Positions 41,065 to 52,400 of a stretch of DNA of 64,000 nt are shown piece after piece. The notes below the pieces were generated by a model that ran no database searches, had not been told where the DNA came from, and was given only the letters and a program-made list of their open reading frames with translations. Position 1 is the first letter of the stretch. Each line of letters starts with the position of its first letter. The position numbers and the translations under genes were made by a program. The stretch spans positions 205,945-269,944 of the forward strand of contig NZ_JARGEM010000004.1 of NCBI RefSeq assembly GCF_029211225.1. The letters run 5' to 3'. This stretch comes from Antiquaquibacter metalliresistens (GTDB lineage: Bacteria; Actinomycetota; Actinomycetes; Actinomycetales; Microbacteriaceae).

Positions 41065-41171
41065 CCTCCGCCGGATTCGCGGGAAACCTCCGCCGGACTC
41101 GCGATAGCCTCGGCCGGATTCGCGGGAAACCTCCGCCGGACTCGCGGAGACCTCCGCCGGGCTCGCGGAAC
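41065..41171. repeat. Five tandem 21-22-bp units
   Basis: Five consecutive units of 22, 21, 22, 21 and 21 bp share the pattern CCTCSGCCGGRYTCGCGRRAR. Units one and three are nearly identical (CGCGGGAAA ending), as are units two and four in their centre, giving a 43-bp higher-order period. The last unit runs directly into the 31-bp hairpin at 41165. Confidence 0.8.
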
Positions 41172-41426: not shown

Positions 41427-41474
41427 GACGACCGACCGACGACCGACGACGGACGACCGACCGACGACCGACGG
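41427..41474. repeat. Tandem GACC/GACG-rich repeat
   Basis: A 22-bp segment starting GACGACCGACCGACG occurs at 41427-41448 and again at 41452-41473, 25 bp apart, itself built of GAC-CGAC units. It lies about 90 bp before the formamidase-family gene and looks like slippage-prone simple sequence. Confidence 0.75.
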
Positions 41475-41550
41475 CAGGTGGCAGACGACCGAGGGCGGGT
41501 GGCGGGTGGTGGGTGGCAGACGGGCGCGCTGGGCGGTGCGTGCTGGTCGG

Positions 41551-41562: not shown

Positions 41563-42591
41563 ATGGATGTACTGCAGCCCGGGCGGGGACCGATCCGCGC
41601 CGCCGCGTACCTGTCCGCCGACCCGGAGCGGGTGTTCTGGGGCGAGTTGCCGTGCGAGGCCGACGAGCCGGTGCTGACGATCGACTCCGGCACCGAGGTG
41701 ACGATCGACACGATAAGCCACGAGGGGATCCTGGAGGACCAGGGGCGCGATCCGCTCGCCTTCTTCGCCGCGCACGGCGCCGACGAGGTGCTGGAGGATG
41801 CGATCGCGCTCGCCGCCTCGGGCCGCGAGCGCGCCGCGGGCCCGCACGTGGTCACCGGTCCGATCGCGGTGCGCGGCGCCAAGCCGGGCGACGTGCTCAC
41901 CATGACCCTCATCGAGGCCCTGCCGCGCGTGCCGTACGGCGTCATCTCCAATCGCCACGGTCGCGGGGCGCTGCCGGACGAGTACCCGGCGCATGGGCAG
42001 ACGGTGAGCATTTTCGCGGGCGTCGACGGCGATCACGGCACCATCGCTCGCGTGGCCGGCGGGTCACGCGACGTGCGGTTCCCGCTCGCGCCGTTCCTCG
42101 GCACGATGGGCGTCGCCGTCGCCGGTGACATCCGCCCGAACTCGGTTCCGCCGGGGCTGCACGGCGGCAACATCGACATCAACCTGCTGACCGCCGGGGC
42201 CTCGTTGCATCTGCCGGTGCAGGTCGACGGTGCCCTCGCCTACGTCGGCGACCCTCACTTCGCCCAGGGCGACGGCGAGGTCGCCCTCACGGCGATGGAG
42301 GCATCCCTCAGGGTCACGGTGCGCTTCGACCTGGTGCCCGGGGGCATGGAGGTGGAGGGGCCGCTCGGCGAGACGGACGAGTACCTGATTCCGACGGGAC
42401 TCGATCGCGACCTCGACACCGCGGTGCAGAAGGCCGTGCGCAACGCCATCACGCTGCTGCGCCACCGTTACGGCATGGATGCCGAACACGCCTACGCCTA
42501 CCTCTCGGCTGCGACCGACTTCGACATCTCCCAGGTCGTCGATCAGGTCAAGGGCGTGCACGCCCGCATCCGCAAGGCCGACTTCGCATGA
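41563..42591 (+). CDS. Acetamidase/formamidase family amidohydrolase
   Basis: A 342-residue FmdA/AmdA-family protein. It shows GDVLTMTLIEALPR, the GDIRPNSVPPGLHGGNIDINLLTAGASLHLPVQVDGALAYVGDPHFAQGDGEV region that forms the active site in this family, and a helical C-terminus. Members hydrolyse small amides such as formamide or acetamide to the acid and ammonia. Its stop overlaps the start of the AtzH-amidase fusion gene, and ureidoglycine aminotransferase and allantoate hydrolase genes follow, so a small amide from purine breakdown, for example oxamate, is a reasonable substrate guess. Confidence 0.82.
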   Translation: MDVLQPGRGPIRAAAYLSADPERVFWGELPCEADEPVLTIDSGTEVTIDTISHEGILEDQGRDPLAFFAAHGADEVLEDAIALAASGRERAAGPHVVTGPIAVRGAKPGDVLTMTLIEALPRVPYGVISNRHGRGALPDEYPAHGQTVSIFAGVDGDHGTIARVAGGSRDVRFPLAPFLGTMGVAVAGDIRPNSVPPGLHGGNIDINLLTAGASLHLPVQVDGALAYVGDPHFAQGDGEVALTAMEASLRVTVRFDLVPGGMEVEGPLGETDEYLIPTGLDRDLDTAVQKAVRNAITLLRHRYGMDAEHAYAYLSAATDFDISQVVDQVKGVHARIRKADFA

Positions 42592-44084
42592 CCGGCCCCC
42601 AACAGCACGCCGAGATCATCGACGCCTTCTGGCAATACGAGCGGGCGCTGATGTCCAACGACCTCGACGCGCTCGACCGGCTGTTCGCGCCAGGGGCGGA
42701 GACGCTGCGCGGCGATGCCGCGGGCATCCTGGTCGGGCACGACGCGATCGCGGACTTCCGCGGCGGCGCCCCGGCGCGCGCGATCCTGCACGTCGAGGTG
42801 CGCGAGATCGCGGATGACGCCGCCCTCGTCGTCGCGATCACCGCCCCCACGACCGGCGGCCGCGGCCAGCAGACCCAGCTCTGGCGCAAGGCCGAAGGAC
42901 TCTGGCGCGTCGCCGCCGCCCACGTCGCAGTTCCGGTCAAAGCCATCGACGCCGCCATCTGGCGCGCGGTCGGCACGCCCCTGGTGCGCGGAGCCGCGCA
43001 CGGGCCCCTGCGCGGGCAGACCGTCGCCGTGAAGGACCTCTACGACATCGTCGGTCAGAAGGTGGGCGCTGGCATCCCCGCCTGGCTCGACCGGGCGGAA
43101 CCCGCGACCGGCACCTCCCCGGCCGTCGCCGCGCTGCTCGCCGCCGGGGCCGATGTGACCGGCATCGCGCAGACCGACGAGTTCGCGTACTCGATCGCCG
43201 GGCGCAACCCGCACTCGGGCACGCCGCTCAATCCCGCGGTGCTCGGCGGGGTGCCGGGCGGCTCGTCGAGCGGGCCGGCCTCCGCGGTCGCGTCGGGGCA
43301 GGCATCCATCGGCCTGGGCACCGACACCGCGGGCTCGATCCGCGTGCCCGCGAGCTACCAGGGACTCTGGGGGCTGCGCACGACCCACGGCGCGGTCTCC
43401 CGCGAGGGGCTGCTGCCGCTCGCGCCGAGCTTCGACACGGTCGGTTGGCTCACCCGCGACGCCGCGACCCTGCGCGCCGCGGCGGCCGCGACGCTTCCCG
43501 CCGGTGGCGGTGTCGCCGACCTCGTCAGTGCCCCCGCCCTCCTCGATGTCGTCGAGGCGGACGTGCGGGCCGCGTTCGAGGCGTTCGACCGCTTCGAGCA
43601 CGTCGAGCTGGGCGACCTCGATGAGCTGTTCTTCGCGTTCCGCACCGTGCAGCAGGCCGAGGCGTGGCGTGCCCATGGGGCGTGGATCACCGCGCACCCC
43701 GGTGCACTCGGCGACGATGTCGCGGGCCGGTTCGCGCTCGCGGCGGCGGTCACGCCTGAGCAGGAGTCCGCCGCTCGCGTCGTGATGGCGGCGGCGCGGC
43801 AGCGACTGGATGCCGTGCTCGGCGACCGCGTGCTGGTGCTGCCGTCCGCGTCATCCGTCGCCCCCTCGGTGTTTGCCGACGCCGAGCTCATCGAGCGCAC
43901 CCGGCAGGGCACCCTGCGCCTGACGTGCATCGCCGGACTCACCGGTCGCCCGGCGCTGAGCGTGCCGCTGCTGGGTGTGCCGCAGCCCGGCGCGCTGCTC
44001 GCGGCTCCCGTCGGGGTGTGCCTCGTCGGGCCGCGCGGCAGCGACCTGGCGCTCATCGACGTCGCGGAGTCCCTCACGCAGTGA
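42588..44084 (+). CDS. AtzH/HpxZ-like domain fused to an amidase-signature hydrolase
   Basis: A 498-residue fusion. Residues 1 to about 118 are an AtzH/HpxZ-like (DUF3225, NTF2-fold) domain (AEIIDAFWQYERALMSNDLDALDRLF, LWRKAEGLWRVAAAHVAVP). Residues from about 130 are an amidase-signature enzyme with the catalytic Lys149 (VAVKDLYD), cis-Ser in GGSSSG (226-228) and the nucleophile Ser250 in GTDTAGSIRVPA. In Klebsiella the separate HpxZ and HpxY proteins belong to the hpx cluster, where oxalurate is the product of a PucG homologue. The neighbouring pucG gene makes oxalurate hydrolysis the best guess. Starts by ATGA overlap with the formamidase-family gene. Confidence 0.85.
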   Translation: MTGPQQHAEIIDAFWQYERALMSNDLDALDRLFAPGAETLRGDAAGILVGHDAIADFRGGAPARAILHVEVREIADDAALVVAITAPTTGGRGQQTQLWRKAEGLWRVAAAHVAVPVKAIDAAIWRAVGTPLVRGAAHGPLRGQTVAVKDLYDIVGQKVGAGIPAWLDRAEPATGTSPAVAALLAAGADVTGIAQTDEFAYSIAGRNPHSGTPLNPAVLGGVPGGSSSGPASAVASGQASIGLGTDTAGSIRVPASYQGLWGLRTTHGAVSREGLLPLAPSFDTVGWLTRDAATLRAAAAATLPAGGGVADLVSAPALLDVVEADVRAAFEAFDRFEHVELGDLDELFFAFRTVQQAEAWRAHGAWITAHPGALGDDVAGRFALAAAVTPEQESAARVVMAAARQRLDAVLGDRVLVLPSASSVAPSVFADAELIERTRQGTLRLTCIAGLTGRPALSVPLLGVPQPGALLAAPVGVCLVGPRGSDLALIDVAESLTQ

Positions 44085-44517
44085 CGGTGCGGGCGATGAG
44101 CCAGCTTGCCGGGATGTGCCCGGCGGCGAGTACGACCGTGGCGACCGCCAGCCAGGGCGAGGCTCCCCACGCCGCGGCGAGACCGAAGGCGAGCACCGGG
44201 AACACCGCCATCGGCACCGGCAGCGGGCCGAGCCGACGGTAGAGCAGAGCGAACGTGCGCCCCCGCAGCAGATACCGCGCCCACAGCGCGAGATAGGCGA
44301 GTTCGGCCGCGGTCACCCCGACGAGCCACCACGGATGCTCGCCGAGGGGGAAGGCGACGAGGGCCAGACAGCCCGCCTGGCCCGCCCGTTCGAGGATCGT
44401 CAGCCCCAGGGGCACGGGCACTCGGCGCATTCCGTCGCGCGGCGGGAACCGCAGCAGCAGCAGATTCGGGGCGAGCACGGCCAGCCCGATCGCCAGACCC
44501 ACCCAGGAGAAGCTCAC
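44074..44517 (-). CDS. Small polytopic membrane protein, unknown function
   Basis: A 147-residue protein with about four or five membrane helices (WVGLAIGLAVLAPNLLLL, ILERAGQAGCLALVAFPLG, WWLVGVTAAELAYLALWARYLL, VPMAVFPVLAFGLAAAWGASPWLAVATVVLAAGHIPASWLIA). I do not recognise the family. The GTG at 44517 is preceded at 6 nt by CAAGAT, matching the leaderless pattern; an in-frame GTG at 44538 is possible. It lies on the opposite strand inside the purine region, overlaps the amidase end by 11 bp and is divergent from pucG. Confidence 0.65.
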   Translation of the reverse strand: MSFSWVGLAIGLAVLAPNLLLLRFPPRDGMRRVPVPLGLTILERAGQAGCLALVAFPLGEHPWWLVGVTAAELAYLALWARYLLRGRTFALLYRRLGPLPVPMAVFPVLAFGLAAAWGASPWLAVATVVLAAGHIPASWLIARTVTA

Positions 44518-44546
44518 GTCGTCATCTTGCCGCAACACGACATCCG

Positions 44547-44552
44547 TAGCAT
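44547..44552 (+). promoter_or_regulatory. Putative -10 element of pucG
   Basis: TAGCAT lies 6 nt upstream of the pucG ATG, so the pucG-allC message is probably leaderless. Confidence 0.5.
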
Positions 44553-44558
44553 TGACTC

Positions 44559-45776
44559 ATGCCGACCGAGCCGATCAACCCTCCCGCGCGCCTGTTGATG
44601 GGTCCGGGCCCGATCAACGCCGACCCGCGCGTGCTGCGTGCCATGTCCGCGCAGCTCGTCGGCCAGTACGACCCGTTCATGACCGCGACGATGAACGAGA
44701 CGATGGCGCTCTACCGCGACGTGTTCCGCACCGACAACGACGCGACCCTGCTGATCGACGGCACGTCGCGGGCGGGCATCGAGTCGGCGTTCGTGAGCCT
44801 CATCGAACCGGGGGATGTCGTGCTCGTGCCGATCTTCGGCCGCTTCGGCCACCTGCTGCGCGAGATCGCCGAGCGCTGCCAGGCCGACGTGCGCGTGATC
44901 GAGCGCGAGTGGGGCACCGTCTTCACCGCCGCCGAGATCGAGGCCGCGCTCATCGAGCACCGACCGAAGCTGCTCGCCATCGTGCACGGTGACACTTCGA
45001 CGACCCTCGTGCAGCCGCTCGCCGAGCTCGGCCAGCTGGCGCTCAAGCACGGCGCCCTGTTCTACACCGACGTCACCGCCTCGCTCGCCGGCAACGAGTT
45101 CGCCTTCGACGACTGGTGCCTGGATGTCGCCACCGGCGGCCTGCAGAAGTGTCTCGCCGGTCCGTCCGGCAGCTCGCCGATCACCCTCTCGGAGCGGGCC
45201 GTGGAGGTCGTCAACTCCCGCAAGTCCGTCGAGGCCGGCATCCGGTCGGAGGGGGATGCCGTCTCCGCCAGCCCCATCCGCAGCAACTACTTCGACCTCA
45301 GCCAGATCCTCGACTACTGGGGGCCGAAGCGCCTCAACCATCACACGGAGGCTACGAGCATGCTCTACGCCGCCCGCGAGTGCGCGCGCTTGCTCGTGGA
45401 GGAGGGCATGGACAACGCAGTCGAGCGCCACCGGGTGCACGGCACCGCGATGGTAGAAGGGCTCGTGGCGCTCGGTCTGGAACTGTTCGGCGACCAGTCG
45501 GTGCGCATGAACAACGTGGTCGGCGTGAAGATCCCCGAGGGCATCGACGGCGACCGTGCCCGCGCCGCGATGCTGCTCGACTACGGCATCGAGATCGGCA
45601 CCTCGTTCGGTCCATTACACGGCAAGGTCTGGCGCATCGGCACCATGGGCTACAACGCGCGCCGCGACGCGGTGCTCTCCACCCTCGCCGCCCTCGAGCA
45701 GGTGCTGCGCCGCGGCGGAGTCACCGTGACCGCCGGCAGCGGCGTCGCAGCGGCCCTGGACAGCTATGAGCGCTGA
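44559..45776 (+). CDS. pucG: (S)-ureidoglycine-glyoxylate aminotransferase-like, PucG
   Basis: A 405-residue class V PLP-dependent aminotransferase. GPGPINADPRVLRAMSAQLVGQYDP is the family start, LLIDGTSRAGIESAF the phosphate-binding region, and the PLP lysine lies in DVATGGLQKCLAGPSGSSPI. PucG moves the amino group of ureidoglycine to glyoxylate, giving glycine and oxalurate. The allC gene begins inside its 3' end (11-bp overlap), and allantoate hydrolysis yields the ureidoglycine it uses. The close AGT/SGAT family makes a simple alanine- or serine-glyoxylate role a weaker alternative. Confidence 0.88.
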   Translation: MPTEPINPPARLLMGPGPINADPRVLRAMSAQLVGQYDPFMTATMNETMALYRDVFRTDNDATLLIDGTSRAGIESAFVSLIEPGDVVLVPIFGRFGHLLREIAERCQADVRVIEREWGTVFTAAEIEAALIEHRPKLLAIVHGDTSTTLVQPLAELGQLALKHGALFYTDVTASLAGNEFAFDDWCLDVATGGLQKCLAGPSGSSPITLSERAVEVVNSRKSVEAGIRSEGDAVSASPIRSNYFDLSQILDYWGPKRLNHHTEATSMLYAARECARLLVEEGMDNAVERHRVHGTAMVEGLVALGLELFGDQSVRMNNVVGVKIPEGIDGDRARAAMLLDYGIEIGTSFGPLHGKVWRIGTMGYNARRDAVLSTLAALEQVLRRGGVTVTAGSGVAAALDSYER

Positions 45777-46983
45777 GTCCATCCTGGAGCGTTGCGACGA
45801 TCTCGCGACGATCACCTCCACGCCCGGGTCGCTCACCCGGGTGCACCTGAGCGCCGAGCATCGCGCCGCCAACGACATGATCGCCGCCTGGATGACCGAG
45901 GCCGGCCTGTCGACCTGGCAGGATGCCGCAGGCAACCAGTGCGGACGCCGCGAGGGCCGCGAACCCGATCTCCCGGCCCTGCTGCTCGGCTCGCACATCG
46001 ACACGGTGCCCGATGCCGGACGCTACGACGGCATGCTGGGCGTGCTGTTGGCCATCGCCGTGGCGGACCGCCTGCGCGACGTGGAACTGCCGTTCGCCCT
46101 CGAGGTCGTCGCCTTCAGCGACGAGGAGGGCACGCGGTTCGGCAACGCCCTGCTCGGCAGCCGGGCCCTCGCGGGCACCTGGGACGACGACTGGTGGAAC
46201 CTCACCGATGACGCCGGCATCACCCTGTTCGAGGCCTTCGGCGATTTCGGACTCGACCCGGCGCGGCTGCCCGGGGCGTTCCGGCGGCCCGAGGAACTCA
46301 TCGGCTACCTGGAGGCGCACATCGAACAGGGGCCGATCCTCGACGATGCCGATCGTCGACTCGCGGTCGTGACCTCGATCGCCGGAGCGCGCCGCTTCGA
46401 GCTCGAGATGATCGGCAAGGCGGGGCACGCCGGCGGCACCCGTTTCGAGCAGCGCCGGGACGCGCTCGTCGGCGCGAGCGAGGTCGTCGTCGCGATCGAG
46501 CGCATCTCCAAGGCGCGGGGTGTGATCGGTACCGTCGGCCGCATCGAGGCGCAGCCCGGCGGCGTGAACGTGATCCCGGGTCGCGTGGAGTTCAGCCTCG
46601 ACCTGCGCGCCGAGTTCGACGACGACCGCGACGAGGCCCTCAAGGAGATCTTCGACGAGGCGACCGCGATCGCCGCACGGCGGGGGCTGAGCTTCGCCCA
46701 CCGCGAGCTGTATCGGGCCGACGCCACCATGTGCGACCTCGACCTGCGCGCGGCGGTCGAGGCGGGCATCCGTGCCACCGGCGACGACGAGCCCCTGGCG
46801 TTCTGGAGCCGGGCCGGCCACGACGGCATGGCCGTCGCGGCGGTCACCCCGATCGCGATGCTGTTCCTGCGCTGCAAGGGCGGCGTGAGCCATCACCCCG
46901 ACGAGGCGGTGCGCAAGTCGGACGTCGCGGCCGCCCTCGACGCGTACGAGGCGGCCGTGCTCGCCCTCGCCGCGCGCCGGTAG
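45766..46983 (+). CDS. allC: Allantoate amidohydrolase (M20/AllC family)
   Basis: A 405-residue M20-family binuclear metal hydrolase. Metal-binding residues sit in GSHIDTVPDAGRYDGMLG (His and Asp), FSDEEGTRFGN (Glu pair), and AHIEQGPILD (His), with the last His in GGVSHHPDE. It belongs to the AllC/HyuC/N-carbamoyl amidohydrolase group; adjacency to pucG, allantoinase and urate genes indicates allantoate as substrate, giving ureidoglycine, CO2 and ammonia. ATG 45766 overlaps pucG by 11 bp. Confidence 0.88.
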   Translation: MSAESILERCDDLATITSTPGSLTRVHLSAEHRAANDMIAAWMTEAGLSTWQDAAGNQCGRREGREPDLPALLLGSHIDTVPDAGRYDGMLGVLLAIAVADRLRDVELPFALEVVAFSDEEGTRFGNALLGSRALAGTWDDDWWNLTDDAGITLFEAFGDFGLDPARLPGAFRRPEELIGYLEAHIEQGPILDDADRRLAVVTSIAGARRFELEMIGKAGHAGGTRFEQRRDALVGASEVVVAIERISKARGVIGTVGRIEAQPGGVNVIPGRVEFSLDLRAEFDDDRDEALKEIFDEATAIAARRGLSFAHRELYRADATMCDLDLRAAVEAGIRATGDDEPLAFWSRAGHDGMAVAAVTPIAMLFLRCKGGVSHHPDEAVRKSDVAAALDAYEAAVLALAARR

Positions 46984-46997
46984 CGCGACCCGGGTCG

Positions 46998-47531
46998 TCA
47001 GCCCTCGTCGCGGTCGATCCCGTGCCAGAGGTCACCGCACTCGATCTCGAGCGCGCCCTGGGCCACGAGGTAGTCGCGCGCGCCGCGGTCGCCGTGCGAC
47101 GATTCGGCCGCTCCCGCCCAGTGCGCCGCCGGGATCAGCACCGGGTGCCCCGGGCGGCCGTCGTACACCGCCTGTGCGAGCGTGCCGGCCGCGAGCACGC
47201 GGCGCACGACGCTCACGGGCAGGGACGGCAGGTCCACGAGCGTGACGAGGGCCGCATCGCCGGATGCCGCCGCCAGTCCCGCGCGCAGCGACGCCGACAT
47301 CCCGGCGCTCCAGTCGTCGGCGACGACCACCTCGGCGGCGCCCGGGACGAGCGGCCGCGCGAGCTGCGCCATCGCGCCCAGCACCACGACGACGCGGGAG
47401 CACCCGCCGCCCAGCAGCGCCGCGGTCGACGCCGCGATCCAACTGGTGCCGTCGGGCAGCCGCAGCAGGGCCTTCGGTCCGCCCGCGCGGGTGCCGGCAC
47501 CGGCGGCGAGCACGATCCCGGTGGCATCCAT
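46998..47531 (-). CDS. MobA/MocA-like nucleotidyltransferase
   Basis: A 177-residue NTP-transferase. The N-terminal signature GIVLAAGAGTRAGGPKALLRLPDGTSW and the LVDLPSLP and GRPGHPVLIP motifs match the MocA type, which attaches CMP to molybdopterin for xanthine dehydrogenase-class enzymes. Xanthine dehydrogenase is not in the window, but this gene sits beside urate-degrading genes, which suggests it lies elsewhere nearby. ATG 47531 lies 7 nt after TATAAC; the start is divergent from uraD with 16 bp between the two start codons. Confidence 0.8.
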   Translation of the reverse strand: MDATGIVLAAGAGTRAGGPKALLRLPDGTSWIAASTAALLGGGCSRVVVVLGAMAQLARPLVPGAAEVVVADDWSAGMSASLRAGLAAASGDAALVTLVDLPSLPVSVVRRVLAAGTLAQAVYDGRPGHPVLIPAAHWAGAAESSHGDRGARDYLVAQGALEIECGDLWHGIDRDEG

Positions 47532-47534
47532 CGC

Positions 47535-47544
47535 TACTGTTATA
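47535..47544. promoter_or_regulatory. Overlapping divergent -10 elements
   Basis: TACTGT (47535-47540, plus strand) lies 7 nt before the uraD ATG, and TATAAC (47544-47539, minus strand) lies 7 nt before the MocA-like ATG. The two hexamers share two bases, so RNA polymerase could open only one of the promoters at a time. Confidence 0.55.
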
Positions 47545-47547
47545 CCG

Positions 47548-48027
47548 ATGATCGACGTCCCCCGCGAAGAACTGGTCGAGAAGCTCACGACGGCTCTCGG
47601 CGTGCGCCGCTGGGTCGATGCGGTCGCGGGCAACGCCCCGTTCGACGATCTGCAGCAGCTGCTGCTCGTCGCCTACACGGAGGCGACCCCGCTCTCTGCG
47701 GGAGAGATCGCCGAGGCGATGGCGCACCATCCGCGCATCGGGGAGAAGCCGACCGGGCAGAGCGCGTCGGCCGCGATGAGCCGCTCGGAGCAGGGCGATG
47801 CGACCGAGCTCGCCGAGGAGCTGGCGGCGGGCAATGCGGCCTACGAGGCGCGCTTCGGGCGCATCTTCATCATCCGTGCGGCGGGCCGGTCGCGGGCCGA
47901 GATGCTCGCCGAGCTGCACCGTCGCCTCGAACTGGATGATGCGGCCGACCTCGCCATCGTCGGCGAGCAGTTGCGCGACATCGCCCTGCTGCGACTCCAG
48001 AGACTGTTCGGAGAGGACACCCCATGA
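47548..48027 (+). CDS. uraD: OHCU decarboxylase
   Basis: A 159-residue all-helical protein. The diagnostic HPRIGEKPTGQSASAAMSRSEQ contains the catalytic His and the Glu-Gln pair, followed by NAAYEARFGRIFIIRAAGRSRAEMLAELHRRL. It converts 2-oxo-4-hydroxy-4-carboxy-5-ureidoimidazoline to (S)-allantoin, the last step of urate oxidation. It overlaps uraH by ATGA. Confidence 0.95.
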   Translation: MIDVPREELVEKLTTALGVRRWVDAVAGNAPFDDLQQLLLVAYTEATPLSAGEIAEAMAHHPRIGEKPTGQSASAAMSRSEQGDATELAEELAAGNAAYEARFGRIFIIRAAGRSRAEMLAELHRRLELDDAADLAIVGEQLRDIALLRLQRLFGEDTP

Positions 48028-48350
48028 GCCACGTCACCACGCACGTGCTGGATGCCGCACTCGGCCGACCCGCGGAAGGCATCTCGGTCGCGCTCGGCGG
48101 TCCGACCGGCGAGATCATCGCCATGGGCGTCACCGACTCGGACGGCCGGATCGCCGACCTGGGCCCGGATGCGCTGCCCGCCGGCGACTACCAGCTCGAG
48201 TTCGCGACCGGTCCCTACTTCGCGGCCGCGGGCCGCGCCACGTTCTATCCGCGGGTCGTCGTCTCGTTCGTGATCGCGGAGACCACGGCGCACTACCACG
48301 TGCCGCTGCTGCTCTCGCCGTTCGCGTACTCGACGTACCGCGGCAGCTGA
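48024..48350 (+). CDS. uraH: 5-hydroxyisourate hydrolase (transthyretin-like)
   Basis: A 108-residue transthyretin-fold enzyme. HVTTHVLDAALGRPAEGI carries the first catalytic His, and the C-terminal YHVPLLLSPFAYSTYRGS carries the second His and the invariant YRGS tetrapeptide. It hydrolyses the urate oxidase product 5-hydroxyisourate to OHCU for UraD. The gene directly follows uraD and is followed by an R3 repeat. Confidence 0.96.
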   Translation: MSHVTTHVLDAALGRPAEGISVALGGPTGEIIAMGVTDSDGRIADLGPDALPAGDYQLEFATGPYFAAAGRATFYPRVVVSFVIAETTAHYHVPLLLSPFAYSTYRGS

Positions 48351-48568: not shown

Positions 48569-49039
48569 CTAGTAGTCGGTGCGGGACTCGTTGGCGAGCC
48601 AGGCGTCGAAGGGGGCGGCCGCGTCATCCGGCCGCACCGCCTCGATCGTGACCGGCCAGGTGGCGCGGTCGCGGGCGAAGAGTTCGTAGAACTCCCGGTC
48701 GTCGAAGCCGCCGCGGGCCGCGTCATCCCGGTCGGCGGCGAACACGACGCGGTCGATGCGCGCCCACAGCGCCGCCGAGAGGCACAGCGGGCACGGCTCG
48801 CACGAGGTGTAGAGCGTCGCGCCCGCGAGGGAGAAGTCCCCGAGGGATGCGCAGGCCCGCCTGATCGCGACGACCTCGGCGTGCGCGGTCGGGTCGTTGT
48901 CGCGCGTCACGCGGTTCTGGCCCTCCGCGAGCAGCACGCCGTCGCGCACGATGACCGCACCGAACGGACCGCCGCCGTCAGCGACGTTCGCGGTCGCGAG
49001 CTCGATCGCGCGGGCGAGCCAGGCCGCGTCGGAGCTCAT
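48569..49039 (-). CDS. Guanine deaminase-like nucleoside deaminase
   Basis: A 156-residue cytidine-deaminase-fold enzyme. The zinc site is His53-Ala-Glu55 (TAHAEVVAIR) and Cys83/Cys86 in EPCPLCLSA. The length, the start and the C-terminal segment (FDDREFYELFARD) match the GuaD/YkfD group rather than tRNA adenosine deaminase. Next to urate oxidase, deamination of guanine to xanthine is the likely role, feeding purine breakdown. Its start overlaps the urate oxidase stop by ATGA. Confidence 0.85.
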   Translation of the reverse strand: MSSDAAWLARAIELATANVADGGGPFGAVIVRDGVLLAEGQNRVTRDNDPTAHAEVVAIRRACASLGDFSLAGATLYTSCEPCPLCLSAALWARIDRVVFAADRDDAARGGFDDREFYELFARDRATWPVTIEAVRPDDAAAPFDAWLANESRTDY

Positions 49040-49929
49040 GCGAGCCCCGCGGAGAATCGCCAGGCGTCGCCGGCGGGCGGCGCGTCATCCCGCAGCACCT
49101 GCGCCTCGATGAGCCCGTACGGTCGGTCGGCGGCGATGAAGACCTCGCCCGGGTTTTCGAGCCCGAACGGTGCGAGATCGACGACGAAGTGGTGCTTGTT
49201 GGGCGCGGCGAGGCGCACCTCGACGATCTCGGGGAACTCCTCGAGCACCGCCTTGCCCATGTGCCAGAGCGTCTGCTGCAGGGCGAGCGACTGCAGGGTG
49301 GCGAACTCGCGCACCATGATCGCCTTCACCCGCGGGTAGACGGCATCCCAGTCCACCTCGGTCGTGCCGAACCGCCACTTGGCCACGAGGGAGGTGGCCA
49401 TGACGCGGTCGTGGGTCTCCTCGAGCGTCGTGTACTCGTCCTTGAGGAAGCCGGCGAACTCGCTGCCGGTCGACTTGAGGATCACCAGATCCTTGAAGCC
49501 GCCGATCACGTGCTCGCCCGAGGCATCCACGGTGATCGCGGCGGTGCGGATCTCCTGCCCGCGCCGCACCCAGGTGTGATCGTGCTCGGCGCCGTCGATC
49601 ACGACGCGATCCCACGCGAACTCCTCGATCTCGATGCGCGCACCCTCGATCGGCTCCACGTCCGTGACGAAGTGACGGGCGAGCGCGAGCCCGTACTCCT
49701 CGATGGTGGGGATGCCGAACGACTTCGCGTAGGCGAAGGCCGTGTTCTTCTGGGTGTCGGTCGGCAGCACGTTGGACTGGTCGCCGACCAGGTACGCCGG
49801 ATCGAACGGACCCCGCATCGCGGTGGTCACGTTGAGGTCGCGGATCTCGTGTCGAGGCGAGTCGCGCACGATGCGCACGACGCGATTCTCTGCCTTGCCG
49901 TACTGGTTGTCGCCGAGGATGATGCCCAT
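49036..49929 (-). CDS. uox: Urate oxidase (uricase)
   Basis: A 297-residue cofactor-free urate oxidase with two T-fold domains. Conserved features are NQYGKAENRVVRI (catalytic Lys), the NVLPTDTQKNTAFAYAKS loop with the catalytic Thr, FGTTEVDWDAVYPRV, and the PNKHHFVVDLAPFGLEN signature. It oxidises urate to 5-hydroxyisourate. ATG 49929 has an AGGA seven bases upstream. Expected partners UraH and UraD are encoded convergently about 1 kb away. Confidence 0.96.
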   Translation of the reverse strand: MGIILGDNQYGKAENRVVRIVRDSPRHEIRDLNVTTAMRGPFDPAYLVGDQSNVLPTDTQKNTAFAYAKSFGIPTIEEYGLALARHFVTDVEPIEGARIEIEEFAWDRVVIDGAEHDHTWVRRGQEIRTAAITVDASGEHVIGGFKDLVILKSTGSEFAGFLKDEYTTLEETHDRVMATSLVAKWRFGTTEVDWDAVYPRVKAIMVREFATLQSLALQQTLWHMGKAVLEEFPEIVEVRLAAPNKHHFVVDLAPFGLENPGEVFIAADRPYGLIEAQVLRDDAPPAGDAWRFSAGLA

Positions 49930-49961: not shown

Positions 49962-49995
49962 CGTTTCCGGTGGTCGAGCGGATCTCGTTCACCGC
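49962..49995. promoter_or_regulatory. Urate oxidase upstream region with CGTTTCCGG motif
   Basis: The 59-bp gap between the allantoinase stop and the urate oxidase start contains CGTTTCCGG (49962-49970), identical to nine bases of the XRE-cupin promoter region at 62651-62659. It is followed by GGTCGAGCGGATCTCG, which resembles the R4 repeat family. It may combine a regulator half-site with a degraded repeat. Confidence 0.35.
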
Positions 49996-51287
49996 TGCAG
50001 CAGCTGCCCCGACCCTGGGGCTTCGCCCCGCACCCACACCCGCCGGGCCACTCCGCGCAGCTCGCGTCCCTCATAGGCCGACACCGGGTTCTTGTGCAGC
50101 AGCGACTCGGCGTGCACGGTGAACGTCTCCTGCGGCGCGAAGGCCACGAGGTCGGCGTCGGCTCCGATGGCGATGCGGCCCTTCTGCTGCAGACCGACGA
50201 GGTCGGCCGGGCCACGTGACATCCACCCCACCACCGTCTCGAGCGGGATGCCGCGGCGCGACGCCTCCGTCCACACCGCACTGAACCCGGTCTGCAACCC
50301 CGCGATGCCGCCCCACGCGAGCTGGAAGTCGCCATCGCCCGCCGTCTTGAGCTCGACGGTCGCGGGGGAGTGGTCGGTGACGACGAGGTCGATGTCGCCG
50401 TCGATGAGCGCCGTCCAGAGCGCATCACGGTTGGCGTCGTCGCGGATCGGCGGGCAGCACTTGAACTGAGTGGCACCGTCGGCGATCTGCTCCTCGGCGA
50501 TCGTCAGGTAGTGCGGGCAGGTCTCGACCGTGATCGGCAGTCCCTGCGCCCGCGCGGCGCGCAGTGCGGGCAGGGCGGCCGATGACGAGAGGTGCAGGAT
50601 GTGCGCCCGCGCCCCCGTGCGCCGCACTCCCGCGATCACCCGCTCGATCGCGGTCACCTCGGCCTCGTCGGGCCTGGACTGCACGAAGGCGCCGTAGTCG
50701 GTGCCGCCGTGGCCCACGTGCGCGTCGAGCACGCCCGGGTCTTCGGCGTGCACGATGAGCAGACTGCCGAGTTCGGCGATCTCCTCGAGCGCGCGTTCGA
50801 GTTGCTCGGCGTTCAGGTGGTCGAACTCGGGCACGCCGCTCGGGGCGAGGAAGGCCTTGAACCCGAAGACGCCGGCCTCGTGCAGCGGGCGCAGCGCCCC
50901 GAGGTTCTGCGGCACCGCTCCGCCCCAGAAGCCGGTGTCGACGCTCACGGTCGCGACCGCGCGCTTGGCCCCGAGCGCCTCCACCGTGGTCGTCGCCGGG
51001 ATGCTGTTGAGCGGCATGTCGACGATCGTCGTCACGCCCGCCGCCGCCGCCGCCCTCGTCGCCGAGGCGAAACCCTCCCACTCCGTGCGCCCCGGCTCGT
51101 TCACGTGCACGTGGGTGTCGACGATGCCGGGGATCAGCACCTCGTCGTCGGCGAGGGTGACGAGCGGACCGTCGAGCGCACTCTCCGAGATCGCGGCGAT
51201 GCGACCGTCGGCGATGCCGATCCACGCCTCGCGCACCGCCCCGTCGATGTGCGCCGCGGTCGCGTGAACGACAAGGTCGAAAGCCAT
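49989..51287 (-). CDS. allB: Allantoinase
   Basis: A 432-residue cyclic amidohydrolase. The metal ligands HVHVNEPGRTEWEGF, the carbamylated lysine in FGFKAFLAPSGVPEF, LLIVHAEDPG, HILHLSSS and the Asp in VVTDHSPATVELK are all present. The RTEWEGF and SIPATT motifs separate allantoinase from dihydropyrimidinase. It opens allantoin to allantoate for AllC. ATG 51287, on the same strand as uricase and about 60 bp upstream of it. Confidence 0.95.
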   Translation of the reverse strand: MAFDLVVHATAAHIDGAVREAWIGIADGRIAAISESALDGPLVTLADDEVLIPGIVDTHVHVNEPGRTEWEGFASATRAAAAAGVTTIVDMPLNSIPATTTVEALGAKRAVATVSVDTGFWGGAVPQNLGALRPLHEAGVFGFKAFLAPSGVPEFDHLNAEQLERALEEIAELGSLLIVHAEDPGVLDAHVGHGGTDYGAFVQSRPDEAEVTAIERVIAGVRRTGARAHILHLSSSAALPALRAARAQGLPITVETCPHYLTIAEEQIADGATQFKCCPPIRDDANRDALWTALIDGDIDLVVTDHSPATVELKTAGDGDFQLAWGGIAGLQTGFSAVWTEASRRGIPLETVVGWMSRGPADLVGLQQKGRIAIGADADLVAFAPQETFTVHAESLLHKNPVSAYEGRELRGVARRVWVRGEAPGSGQLLQR

Positions 51288-51359: not shown

Positions 51360-52400
51360 ATGACCACCACGCTCGCCTGCCCCAAGCACATGGAGTACGG
51401 CCCCTGCGGCGGCGTCGAGTTCGACGGGCGCTGCGAGGTCGCGGAGTTCCGCTGCGTGTTCCTCGAGCTTCCGACCGTGCGCTGGCACGGCGTCGAGTCC
51501 GACCTGCCGCCGGGTGCCTCCGATCCGGTGCCGCCCGCGCCCGTGTCGGCGGGTGCCACGGCGATGCGGGAGCTGCTCGCGACGCGACCGATCGTGGTGG
51601 CCGACTTCCCGGCCCGTGCACTCGACGCCGACTCCATCGTCGAGTGCGGGGGCATCCTCGCCGGTTCCGTGGATGCCGTGCTCGCGGGCGATGCCGGCGC
51701 CGCCCGCGTGCAGTTCCCGCCCGCCTACCGCGCCGCCCTCATCCAGACCGCCGGACTGAATGTCTGGACCGGCTTCAACTGCCGCGACCGCAACCGGGTC
51801 GCGATGGAGGGCGAACTCGCCGCCCTCGCCCACGTCGGCGTCGCCGGTGTGCACTGCGTGACCGGCGACCACACCCTCACCGGGCAGCGGCCGGATGCCA
51901 CGCCGGTGTTCGACCTGGACTCGACGGAGGCGGCATCCCTGGCCCGTGCCAACGGTCACCTCGTGAGCGTCGCGGAGGCACCGGCCACCCCGCCCGTGGA
52001 ACGCCGCCCGAACCGACTGTTGGAGAAGGCGCGTGCCGGTGCCGAGGTGTGCTTCGTCAACCACGCCGGTGGGGCCGTGCCGGTGGCGGAGTTCATCAAG
52101 CGGGCGCAGGATCTCGGCGCCGACCTCGCCTACATCCCGTGCGTGCCCGTGGTCGTGGACCGCGAGAGTGCCGGGCTGCTGCGCACCTTCACGACGCTCG
52201 TGCTGCCGCCGCTGTACCTGGAGCGCATCCTCGACGCCGCGGACCCCTTCGAGGAGGGCATTGCGGCCGCGGTGGAACTCTCGCGGGAGTTCCTCGAGAT
52301 CGACGGCGTGCGAGGAGTGAACCTCTCCGGCGGCACCGGGCCGCTGCGCGAAGCCTGGTTCGCCGAGGCGCTCGCCCGCATCGGCCGGGAGCTCGCATGA
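51360..52400 (+). CDS. Methylenetetrahydrofolate reductase-like protein with N-terminal MetV-type cysteine motif
   Basis: A 346-residue protein. The first 40 residues hold a four-cysteine motif (Cys7, Cys16, Cys25 and Cys32 in CPKHMEYGPCGG and CEVAEFRCVFLE), as in the MTHFR C-terminal/MetV family. The rest resembles the MetF TIM barrel (GTGDHTL-like VTGDHTLTGQRPDATPVFDLDS, the barrel strand AEVCFVNHAGG, and FIKRAQDLGADLAYIPCVPVV). It probably handles 5,10-methylene-THF reduction or a related C1 step. It is divergent from allantoinase and may process C1 units from glycine or glyoxylate metabolism; this is inference. Confidence 0.7.
   Translation: MTTTLACPKHMEYGPCGGVEFDGRCEVAEFRCVFLELPTVRWHGVESDLPPGASDPVPPAPVSAGATAMRELLATRPIVVADFPARALDADSIVECGGILAGSVDAVLAGDAGAARVQFPPAYRAALIQTAGLNVWTGFNCRDRNRVAMEGELAALAHVGVAGVHCVTGDHTLTGQRPDATPVFDLDSTEAASLARANGHLVSVAEAPATPPVERRPNRLLEKARAGAEVCFVNHAGGAVPVAEFIKRAQDLGADLAYIPCVPVVVDRESAGLLRTFTTLVLPPLYLERILDAADPFEEGIAAAVELSREFLEIDGVRGVNLSGGTGPLREAWFAEALARIGRELA

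Follow-up and report, generated by a model that had tools for sequence, protein, structure and literature searches.

Positions 41563-46983 of a 64,000-nucleotide stretch of the Antiquaquibacter metalliresistens genome (contig NZ_JARGEM010000004.1, positions 205,945 to 269,944; hereafter the window) carry four same-strand genes that probably form the end of an aerobic pathway from purines to ammonia. These genes encode an acetamidase/formamidase-family protein (FMD), a fusion of an AtzH-like domain with an amidase-signature enzyme, the ureidoglycine-glyoxylate aminotransferase PucG and the allantoate amidohydrolase AllC. Judged by sequence, the fusion protein probably deaminates oxalurate and decarboxylates the product to oxamate, which FMD would then turn into oxalate and ammonia. 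This reading is well supported as a pathway and uncertain in mechanism. The open reading frames (ORFs) lie where an earlier note on this DNA had placed them, interrupted only by a membrane-like ORF on the opposite strand between the fusion and pucG.

In the proposed pathway, urate would be converted through allantoin to allantoate, from which AllC would produce ureidoglycine and a first ammonia, and PucG would pass the amino group to glyoxylate and leave oxalurate. These early steps are assigned from family evidence. The amidase half of the fusion may then release ammonia from oxalurate (H2N-CO-NH-CO-COO-) at its ureido end, leaving N-carboxy-oxamate (-OOC-NH-CO-COO-), much as AtzE deaminates 1-carboxybiuret in the account given in passages of PMC6219798. 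The AtzH half of the same chain could decarboxylate N-carboxy-oxamate to oxamate and CO2. Passages of the same source propose an equivalent reaction of AtzH on 1,3-dicarboxyurea, in which Tyr22 would be the central residue, assisted by Arg46. Lastly, FMD is the candidate to stand in for HpxW, which is described as an oxamate amidohydrolase in PMC5270733, and to hydrolyse oxamate, giving oxalate and ammonia.

The two enzymes that would supply oxalurate match known families. The aminotransferase (44559-45776, forward strand) has as its best matches the ureidoglycine-glyoxylate aminotransferase (UGXT) structures 3nnk (568.5 bits) and PucG 3isl (452.6 bits), and the next kind of enzyme scores 292.1 bits. 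Gln and Asn occupy the positions of PucG Gln37 and Asn264, as in 3nnk and 3isl and not in three other aligned aminotransferases; we take these two residues to mark the UGXT role. AllC (45766-46983, forward strand), whose gene overlaps pucG by 11 bases, passes the NCBIfam allantoate amidohydrolase model NF006775 (527.6 bits, cut-off 479) and misses the equivalog TIGR03176 (194.6 bits, cut-off 597.75). FMD (342 amino acids; 41563-42591, forward strand) overlaps the fusion gene by 4 bases and passes PF03069 (FmdA_AmdA) with 119.1 bits against a cut-off of 27, although it remains below the formamidase equivalog NF045496 (FmdA; 84.1 bits, cut-off 500). Its residues N203, D205, D230, H232 and E239 are conserved in at least 97% of letters in a 116-row alignment.

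The proposal of the earlier note that the two additional genes belong with pucG is borne out by both co-occurrence and gene order. In a sample of 297 genomes from the order, the fusion or its amidase was matched in 65, and 63 were retained after two genomes with 32-33% matches (G058 and G072) were dropped; some of the 63 lack the AtzH half. FMD was counted at 50% identity or more, which holds for 75 of the 81 genomes with any match. The pucG gene is present in 51 genomes, 50 of which have the fusion or amidase (the exception is G092), compared with 13 of the 246 genomes without pucG. Likewise, FMD occurs in 50 of the 51 (the exception is G032) versus 25 of the 246, and all three genes are found together in 49 genomes. 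Fisher p values fall below 1e-35 but ignore kinship, and thus the safer figure is the count of genera: all 15 with pucG carry both FMD and the fusion or amidase.

The search for this gene order next to pucG, which had been proposed as a check, covered two sets of loci. The first consists of 60 of the 64 other matching genomes of the order (G157, G032, G058 and G072 were left out), in which tblastn detects pucG in 42 neighbourhoods, FMD in 42 and both in 38. The second consists of named loci, the best 80 by similarity among at least 559 relatives, so that gene context played no part in the choice; here FMD, pucG and allC are present in 74, 74 and 71 cases, respectively. Counting only the genes sought, FMD, fusion, pucG and allC are consecutive in 33 of the 60 order neighbourhoods and in 62 of the 80 named loci. 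Estimated gaps are short, with medians of 37.5 bases from FMD to the fusion (66/74 within 150), 75 bases from the fusion to pucG (52/74) and 47 bases from pucG to allC (68/71). In about 20 loci, mostly from Microbacterium and allied genera, the run opens with genes for an NCS1-type permease, a racemase and allantoinase. Some genomes of one genus, g20 (e.g. G120), carry the fusion gene elsewhere, and FMD lies head to head with pucG-allC (L199). At one locus (L044, genome G103) the fusion is kept although genome searches match neither FMD nor pucG and allC is missing from its surroundings, possibly reflecting loss of the pathway. Distant FMD relatives (50-51% identity by blastp) lie near an opposite-strand GGT-family gene at L196 (G014) and L198 (G148), which suggests that this FMD subgroup has another job.

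The fusion protein (498 amino acids; 42588-44084, forward strand) combines PF11533 and PF01425 in a single chain. Pfam assigns 75.9 bits to the AtzH-like part (residues 4-115, cut-off 27) and 162.4 bits to the amidase (residues 121-299). The fusion is a single open frame in many genomes and so cannot be put down to an error in a single assembly. The AtzH part is present in all 80 named loci and in 56 of the 60 order loci, and the best named relative among the best 80 is from a Rhodoglobus metagenome-assembled genome (MAG), with 76% identity in the best segment. In the wider phylum, AtzH-like domains are rare (9 of 296 genomes, six above the cut-off). A second fusion match lies beside the first at L116 (a Herbiconiux MAG) and L157 (Microbacterium indicum).

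Alignment to AtzH (6bjt) places the NTF2-type half at residues 4-115 (42597-42932) and reveals counterparts of AtzH Tyr22, Arg46, Arg63, Arg73, Gln106 and Gln108; the half scores 65.9 bits against the NCBIfam HpxZ model (cut-off 135). In a 59-row alignment, the Tyr22 counterpart Y17 is retained in 55 of the 56 rows with a letter, and the Arg46 counterpart R41 in 56 of 56. Similarly, R58, R64 and Q97 are found in 55/57, 57/57 and 56/57 rows with a letter. In the amidase-signature half (residues 125-497; 42960-44078), S250 is present in 59 of 59 rows, K149 in 58 of 59 and S226 in at least 95%. An AlphaFold model of the fusion has a pLDDT of 90.4 and a pTM of 0.84.

It had been suggested that the fusion is a simplified version of the three-protein HpxXYZ system, and this part of the earlier note is not supported. 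The NCBIfam scores and the amidase tree speak against a chain made of HpxX, HpxY and HpxZ. Specifically, the amidase half scores 366.4 bits with the equivalog PRK08310 (NF006169; cut-off 391), which the Rhodococcus fusion passes with 396.7 bits, versus 139.2 bits with the AtzE family PRK09201 (cut-off 461). In a tree of 43 amidase domains, the fusion group of 22 rows (20 sampled sequences, two of them without an AtzH half, plus the Rhodococcus fusion and that of the window) forms one clade with support of 100/99, and six AtzE/HpxY proteins form a separate clade, also with 100/99. The branch uniting the fusions with PRK08310-type proteins has support of 88/93, which is below the starred level; no branch separates off the three intended outgroup rows as one side, and a Pseudoalteromonas amidase has no settled position inside the PRK08310-type group. 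By sequence relationship, the amidase is not of the HpxY/AtzE kind and comes closest to the PRK08310 type, next to which the fusions form a clade of their own.

Plasmid relatives of the fused amidase offer a simpler origin. Of 75 matching records, 40 were listed and nine regions were examined. An hpxZ gene adjoins the amidase in four of them (Azospirillum, Roseomonas, Pseudoroseomonas and Caballeronia), one (Rhodococcus) carries the fusion itself, and four (Rhizobium, Variovorax, Paracoccus and Aminobacter) have no hpxZ match. In Caballeronia, hpxZ and the amidase gene overlap by 4 bases and follow the same order as in the fusion. Because separate PRK08310-type amidases adjoin hpxZ, in Caballeronia in the very order of the fusion, the protein is most simply viewed as a joined two-gene pair of amidase and hpxZ rather than a reduced three-protein system. 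The Caballeronia (L187) and Azospirillum (L181) pairs also adjoin xanthine-dehydrogenase-like, SRPBCC and DUF1116 (AllG-family) genes, a set that is possibly a variant tied to oxalurate transcarbamylation.

The 3.07-Mb genome that contains the window, on contig 29 of 34, is 97.7% complete, and the earlier observation that AllE, HpxW and an AtzG-like protein are missing from the window extends to the whole of it. No match to PF01019, the HpxW family, is found in this genome or in 24 of the 51 pucG genomes as a whole; the other 27 have one. AllG has no match in this genome and none in 50 of the 51, and AtzG-like proteins have no match in any of the 51, in a search that did match a Zymomonas plasmid and gave 0/14 in control genomes. 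For AllE, the genome gave no match, and the 51 pucG genomes gave none above the cut-off and three weak matches below it. Among oxalate enzymes, only an oxalyl-CoA decarboxylase model was sought, and it scores above its cut-off in just one of the 51 genomes. Oxalate is therefore probably a waste product of a route that serves nitrogen recovery.

A hint as to which enzyme acts on oxamate in these genomes comes from a Pseudoalteromonas plasmid. There, a run of genes encodes an amidase (374.4 bits with PRK08310), a GGT-family (HpxW-like) enzyme, a TauE-like protein, PucG and AllC, and no AtzH, AtzG or FMD match is present within 17 kb. The structure closest to this GGT-family enzyme is 5hft, which we take to be HpxW. 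The enzyme shares 50% identity over 191 amino acids with a Klebsiella piece adjoining hpxX, versus about 25% with the compared actinobacterial GGTs. One PF01019 copy was compared from each of four g20 genomes (G032, G014, G120 and G148), and these copies have 25-30% identity to the Pseudoalteromonas and Paracoccus enzymes. When the Klebsiella piece was compared with these copies (G148 left out), two had 28-30% identity over about 200 amino acids and that of G014 gave no match. Because a comparable cluster holds an HpxW-like enzyme, FMD seems to take the place of HpxW in actinobacteria. The proposal that it does so had been made earlier, and both the Pseudoalteromonas cluster and the lack of an HpxW-family match in the A. 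metalliresistens genome speak in its favour.

Several observations weigh against the assignment of the fusion and FMD to oxalurate and oxamate, respectively. Two pucG genomes lack one of the partners, FMD in G032 and the fusion in G092. Within the stretches examined, six named loci have no FMD (L095, L096, L104, L128, L146 and L170) and six have no pucG (L092, L093, L095, L096, L118 and L155); contig ends shorten some of these, and L096, L104, L128 and L155 are full length. In addition, 11 of the 59 aligned rows are fusions linked to a RutB/BiuH-like isochorismatase gene and not to pucG, FMD and the fusion occur together without pucG in Kineosporia (L155) and on a Rhodococcus plasmid (L180), and a Paraburkholderia operon combines a PRK08310-type amidase with AtzE, HpxZ and a RutB-like protein. 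From these contexts, the fusion family has more than one substrate. AtzH Arg66, Phe94 and Arg96 are not conserved in the protein of the window, Q95, the counterpart of Gln106, is Gln in just 40 of 57 rows, and the solved folds closest to the fusion model are those of malonamidase E2, where the top hit is a malonate complex and the next a malonamate complex; AtzE (6c62) ranks sixth. The pucG-less contexts raise the question of whether FMD and the fusion act on another ureide, from a pyrimidine or other N-heterocycle, and merely travel with purine genes. The isochorismatase, cupin and creatininase-like neighbours, the LLM flavin oxidoreductases present at the Rhodococcus plasmid locus and the RutB-like and AtzE-HpxZ genes of Paraburkholderia point that way. 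However, each of the two genes occurs in 50 of the 51 pucG genomes, including those where they are unlinked, and the A. metalliresistens genome has no other oxalurate or oxamate enzyme among those sought, which makes this explanation very improbable for the cluster described here.

Two further alternatives keep the purine pathway and change the chemistry. The AtzH half might be non-catalytic and serve to dimerise or stabilise the amidase, as AtzG does for AtzE, with N-carboxy-oxamate losing its CO2 spontaneously. In G139 and G283, which belong to different genera, FMD, the amidase, pucG and allC are kept, the AtzH half is missing from the amidase gene and no PF11533 match is found anywhere in the genome, indicating that this half is accessory. 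These cases fit a domain that speeds a decarboxylation that also proceeds unaided, and they fit a dispensable scaffold equally well. The Pseudoalteromonas region without an AtzH match, the variability of the Gln106 counterpart and the intrinsic instability of such N-carboxy carbamates, noted in passages of PMC6219798, agree with the scaffold. Yet the counterparts of the Tyr and of Arg46, Arg73 and Gln108 hardly vary across the 59-row alignment and not at all across one of 30 rows, for which a mere scaffold would have no need, and we therefore regard a purely structural role as unlikely. Less probable again is an exchange of roles, with FMD acting on oxalurate and the fused amidase on oxamate. 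Malonamate is a near relative of oxamate, and the top-ranking malonamidase E2 folds with malonate and malonamate keep an oxamate role open for the amidase. Against this, an AtzH partner is sensible only after deamination of a ureide, and an amidase of like type stands beside an HpxW-like enzyme in Pseudoalteromonas. Since HpxW is reported to be the oxamate enzyme (PMC5270733), the Pseudoalteromonas amidase would be left with the oxalurate step. Oxalurate hydrolysis and decarboxylation by the fusion, followed by oxamate hydrolysis by FMD, thus remains our preferred assignment.

The loci without pucG are instructive in their own right. The isochorismatase context (L049, L053, L055, L066, L068-L071, L074, L080 and L081) often includes cupin, creatininase-like or cytosine-deaminase-like genes and an ABC transporter, and a similar set on a Roseomonas plasmid (L183) has the amidase and hpxZ split. 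Between the 42 pucG-linked and the 11 isochorismatase-linked rows, only position S227/T differs at 85% conservation in both groups. The search for FMD relatives beside purine genes outside actinobacteria drew on 866 matching plasmid records, of which 30 were listed; apart from the Rhodococcus plasmid, four were opened, namely those of Palleronia and Acinetobacter and two from Azospirillum. In these four, no PucG-like aminotransferase or allantoate amidohydrolase is listed near the FMD relative; xanthine-dehydrogenase genes are nearby in Palleronia and allantoinase on one of the Azospirillum plasmids. We tentatively entertain, at somewhat less than even chances, that the AtzH-amidase and FMD are a portable two-protein module that converts acylureas (R-CO-NH-CO-NH2) to amides and then to acids. 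If so, a single chain with two active sites would pass an unstable N-carboxy-amide from one to the other, purines (R = carboxylate) would be one use of the module, and the pucG-less loci would be others, acting on N-heterocycles.

The surroundings of the cluster contain genes for the preceding steps. On the forward strand, a candidate uraD gene for OHCU decarboxylase (47539-48027; TIGR03180, 142 bits, cut-off 139.4) is followed by a hydroxyisourate hydrolase gene (48024-48350; TIGR02962, 120.8 bits, cut-off 87.45). On the reverse strand are genes for a MobA-like nucleotidyltransferase (46998-47558, with an uncertain start that may extend to 47633; PF12804, 100.5 bits), a nucleoside/guanine-deaminase-like protein (48569-49039; PF00383, 88.2 bits) and urate oxidase (49036-49929; TIGR03383, 344.8 bits for 49036-49926, cut-off 168.4). 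The frame and start of a further reverse-strand gene (49989-51287) were located, and it has homologues in 54 of the 80 named loci; it is presumably allantoinase, as named from its sequence. The ORF adjoining it (51360-52400) has a weak match to DUF5981, a methylene-tetrahydrofolate reductase C-terminal family, and is found in seven of the 80 named loci. Upstream of the cluster are genes for an HTH-TOBE protein, an ABC permease and an ABC ATPase, which we presume to be a molybdate uptake set. Also upstream of FMD are short tandem repeats (41065-41170; about five copies of a 21-base unit) and a CGAC-rich array (41427-41503). The membrane-like ORF within the cluster (154 amino acids; 44074-44538, reverse strand) has a coding-like third-position GC content, no Pfam or NCBIfam match and no counterpart in 140 related neighbourhoods (tblastn, E<=1e-3), and is probably outside the pathway.

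If the assignments are correct, they would account for the final steps in the recovery of purine nitrogen by many actinobacteria, including Microbacterium, Frigoribacterium, Demequina, Cellulomonas, Nocardioides and others, and give testable functions to genes recorded as 'amidase' and 'acetamidase/formamidase family protein'. Indeed, the Rhodococcus record names the fusion just 'amidase'. In the open-licence PubMed Central (PMC) literature, we found no description of an AtzH-amidase fusion, of a formamidase linked with oxalurate or of a matching actinobacterial purine cluster, and such accounts may have been published elsewhere. Klebsiella and the breakdown of cyanuric acid already provide the outline of the proposed biochemistry, whereas this set of parts, with FMD as the oxamate enzyme, appears unreported in that literature.

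Among known systems, the Hpx branch of Klebsiella (HpxJ, HpxK, HpxW, HpxX, HpxY and HpxZ) has the same proposed intermediates. It shares PucG/HpxJ, an AllC-type enzyme, an amidase-signature enzyme and an HpxZ/AtzH-like part with the cluster described here, which differs in its amidase type, in the absence of an HpxX/AtzG match, in the fusion of the HpxZ part to the amidase and in the proposed replacement of HpxW by a formamidase-family enzyme. The Klebsiella record examined has hpxX, an AtzE-family gene and hpxZ near a PucG-like gene, and HpxW is not in its gene table; PMC6219798 describes the arrangement that includes a GGT gene. The AtzG-AtzE-AtzH system for cyanuric acid in Pseudomonas sp. 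ADP has in common the proposed deaminate-then-decarboxylate chemistry and most AtzH pocket residues, but it acts on another substrate and uses AtzG to solubilise AtzE, whereas in our case no AtzG match is found and the parts are fused. Zymomonas displays another arrangement, AllC - PucG - AtzH - AtzG-like - AtzE. The Pseudoalteromonas run has the same amidase type, PucG and AllC, with an HpxW-like enzyme there and FMD here, and an AtzH match only here. Finally, the proteobacterial plasmid pairs of PRK08310-type amidase and hpxZ (Azospirillum, Roseomonas, Pseudoroseomonas and Caballeronia) are on the same side of the amidase tree as the fusion, but consist of two adjoining genes instead of one, with no AtzG-like gene listed alongside, and have other neighbours, such as xanthine-dehydrogenase-like and DUF1116 genes, or isochorismatase, cupin and creatininase genes. 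The cluster described here also suggests that interchangeable parts have come together on more than one occasion to form the route from oxalurate to oxalate.

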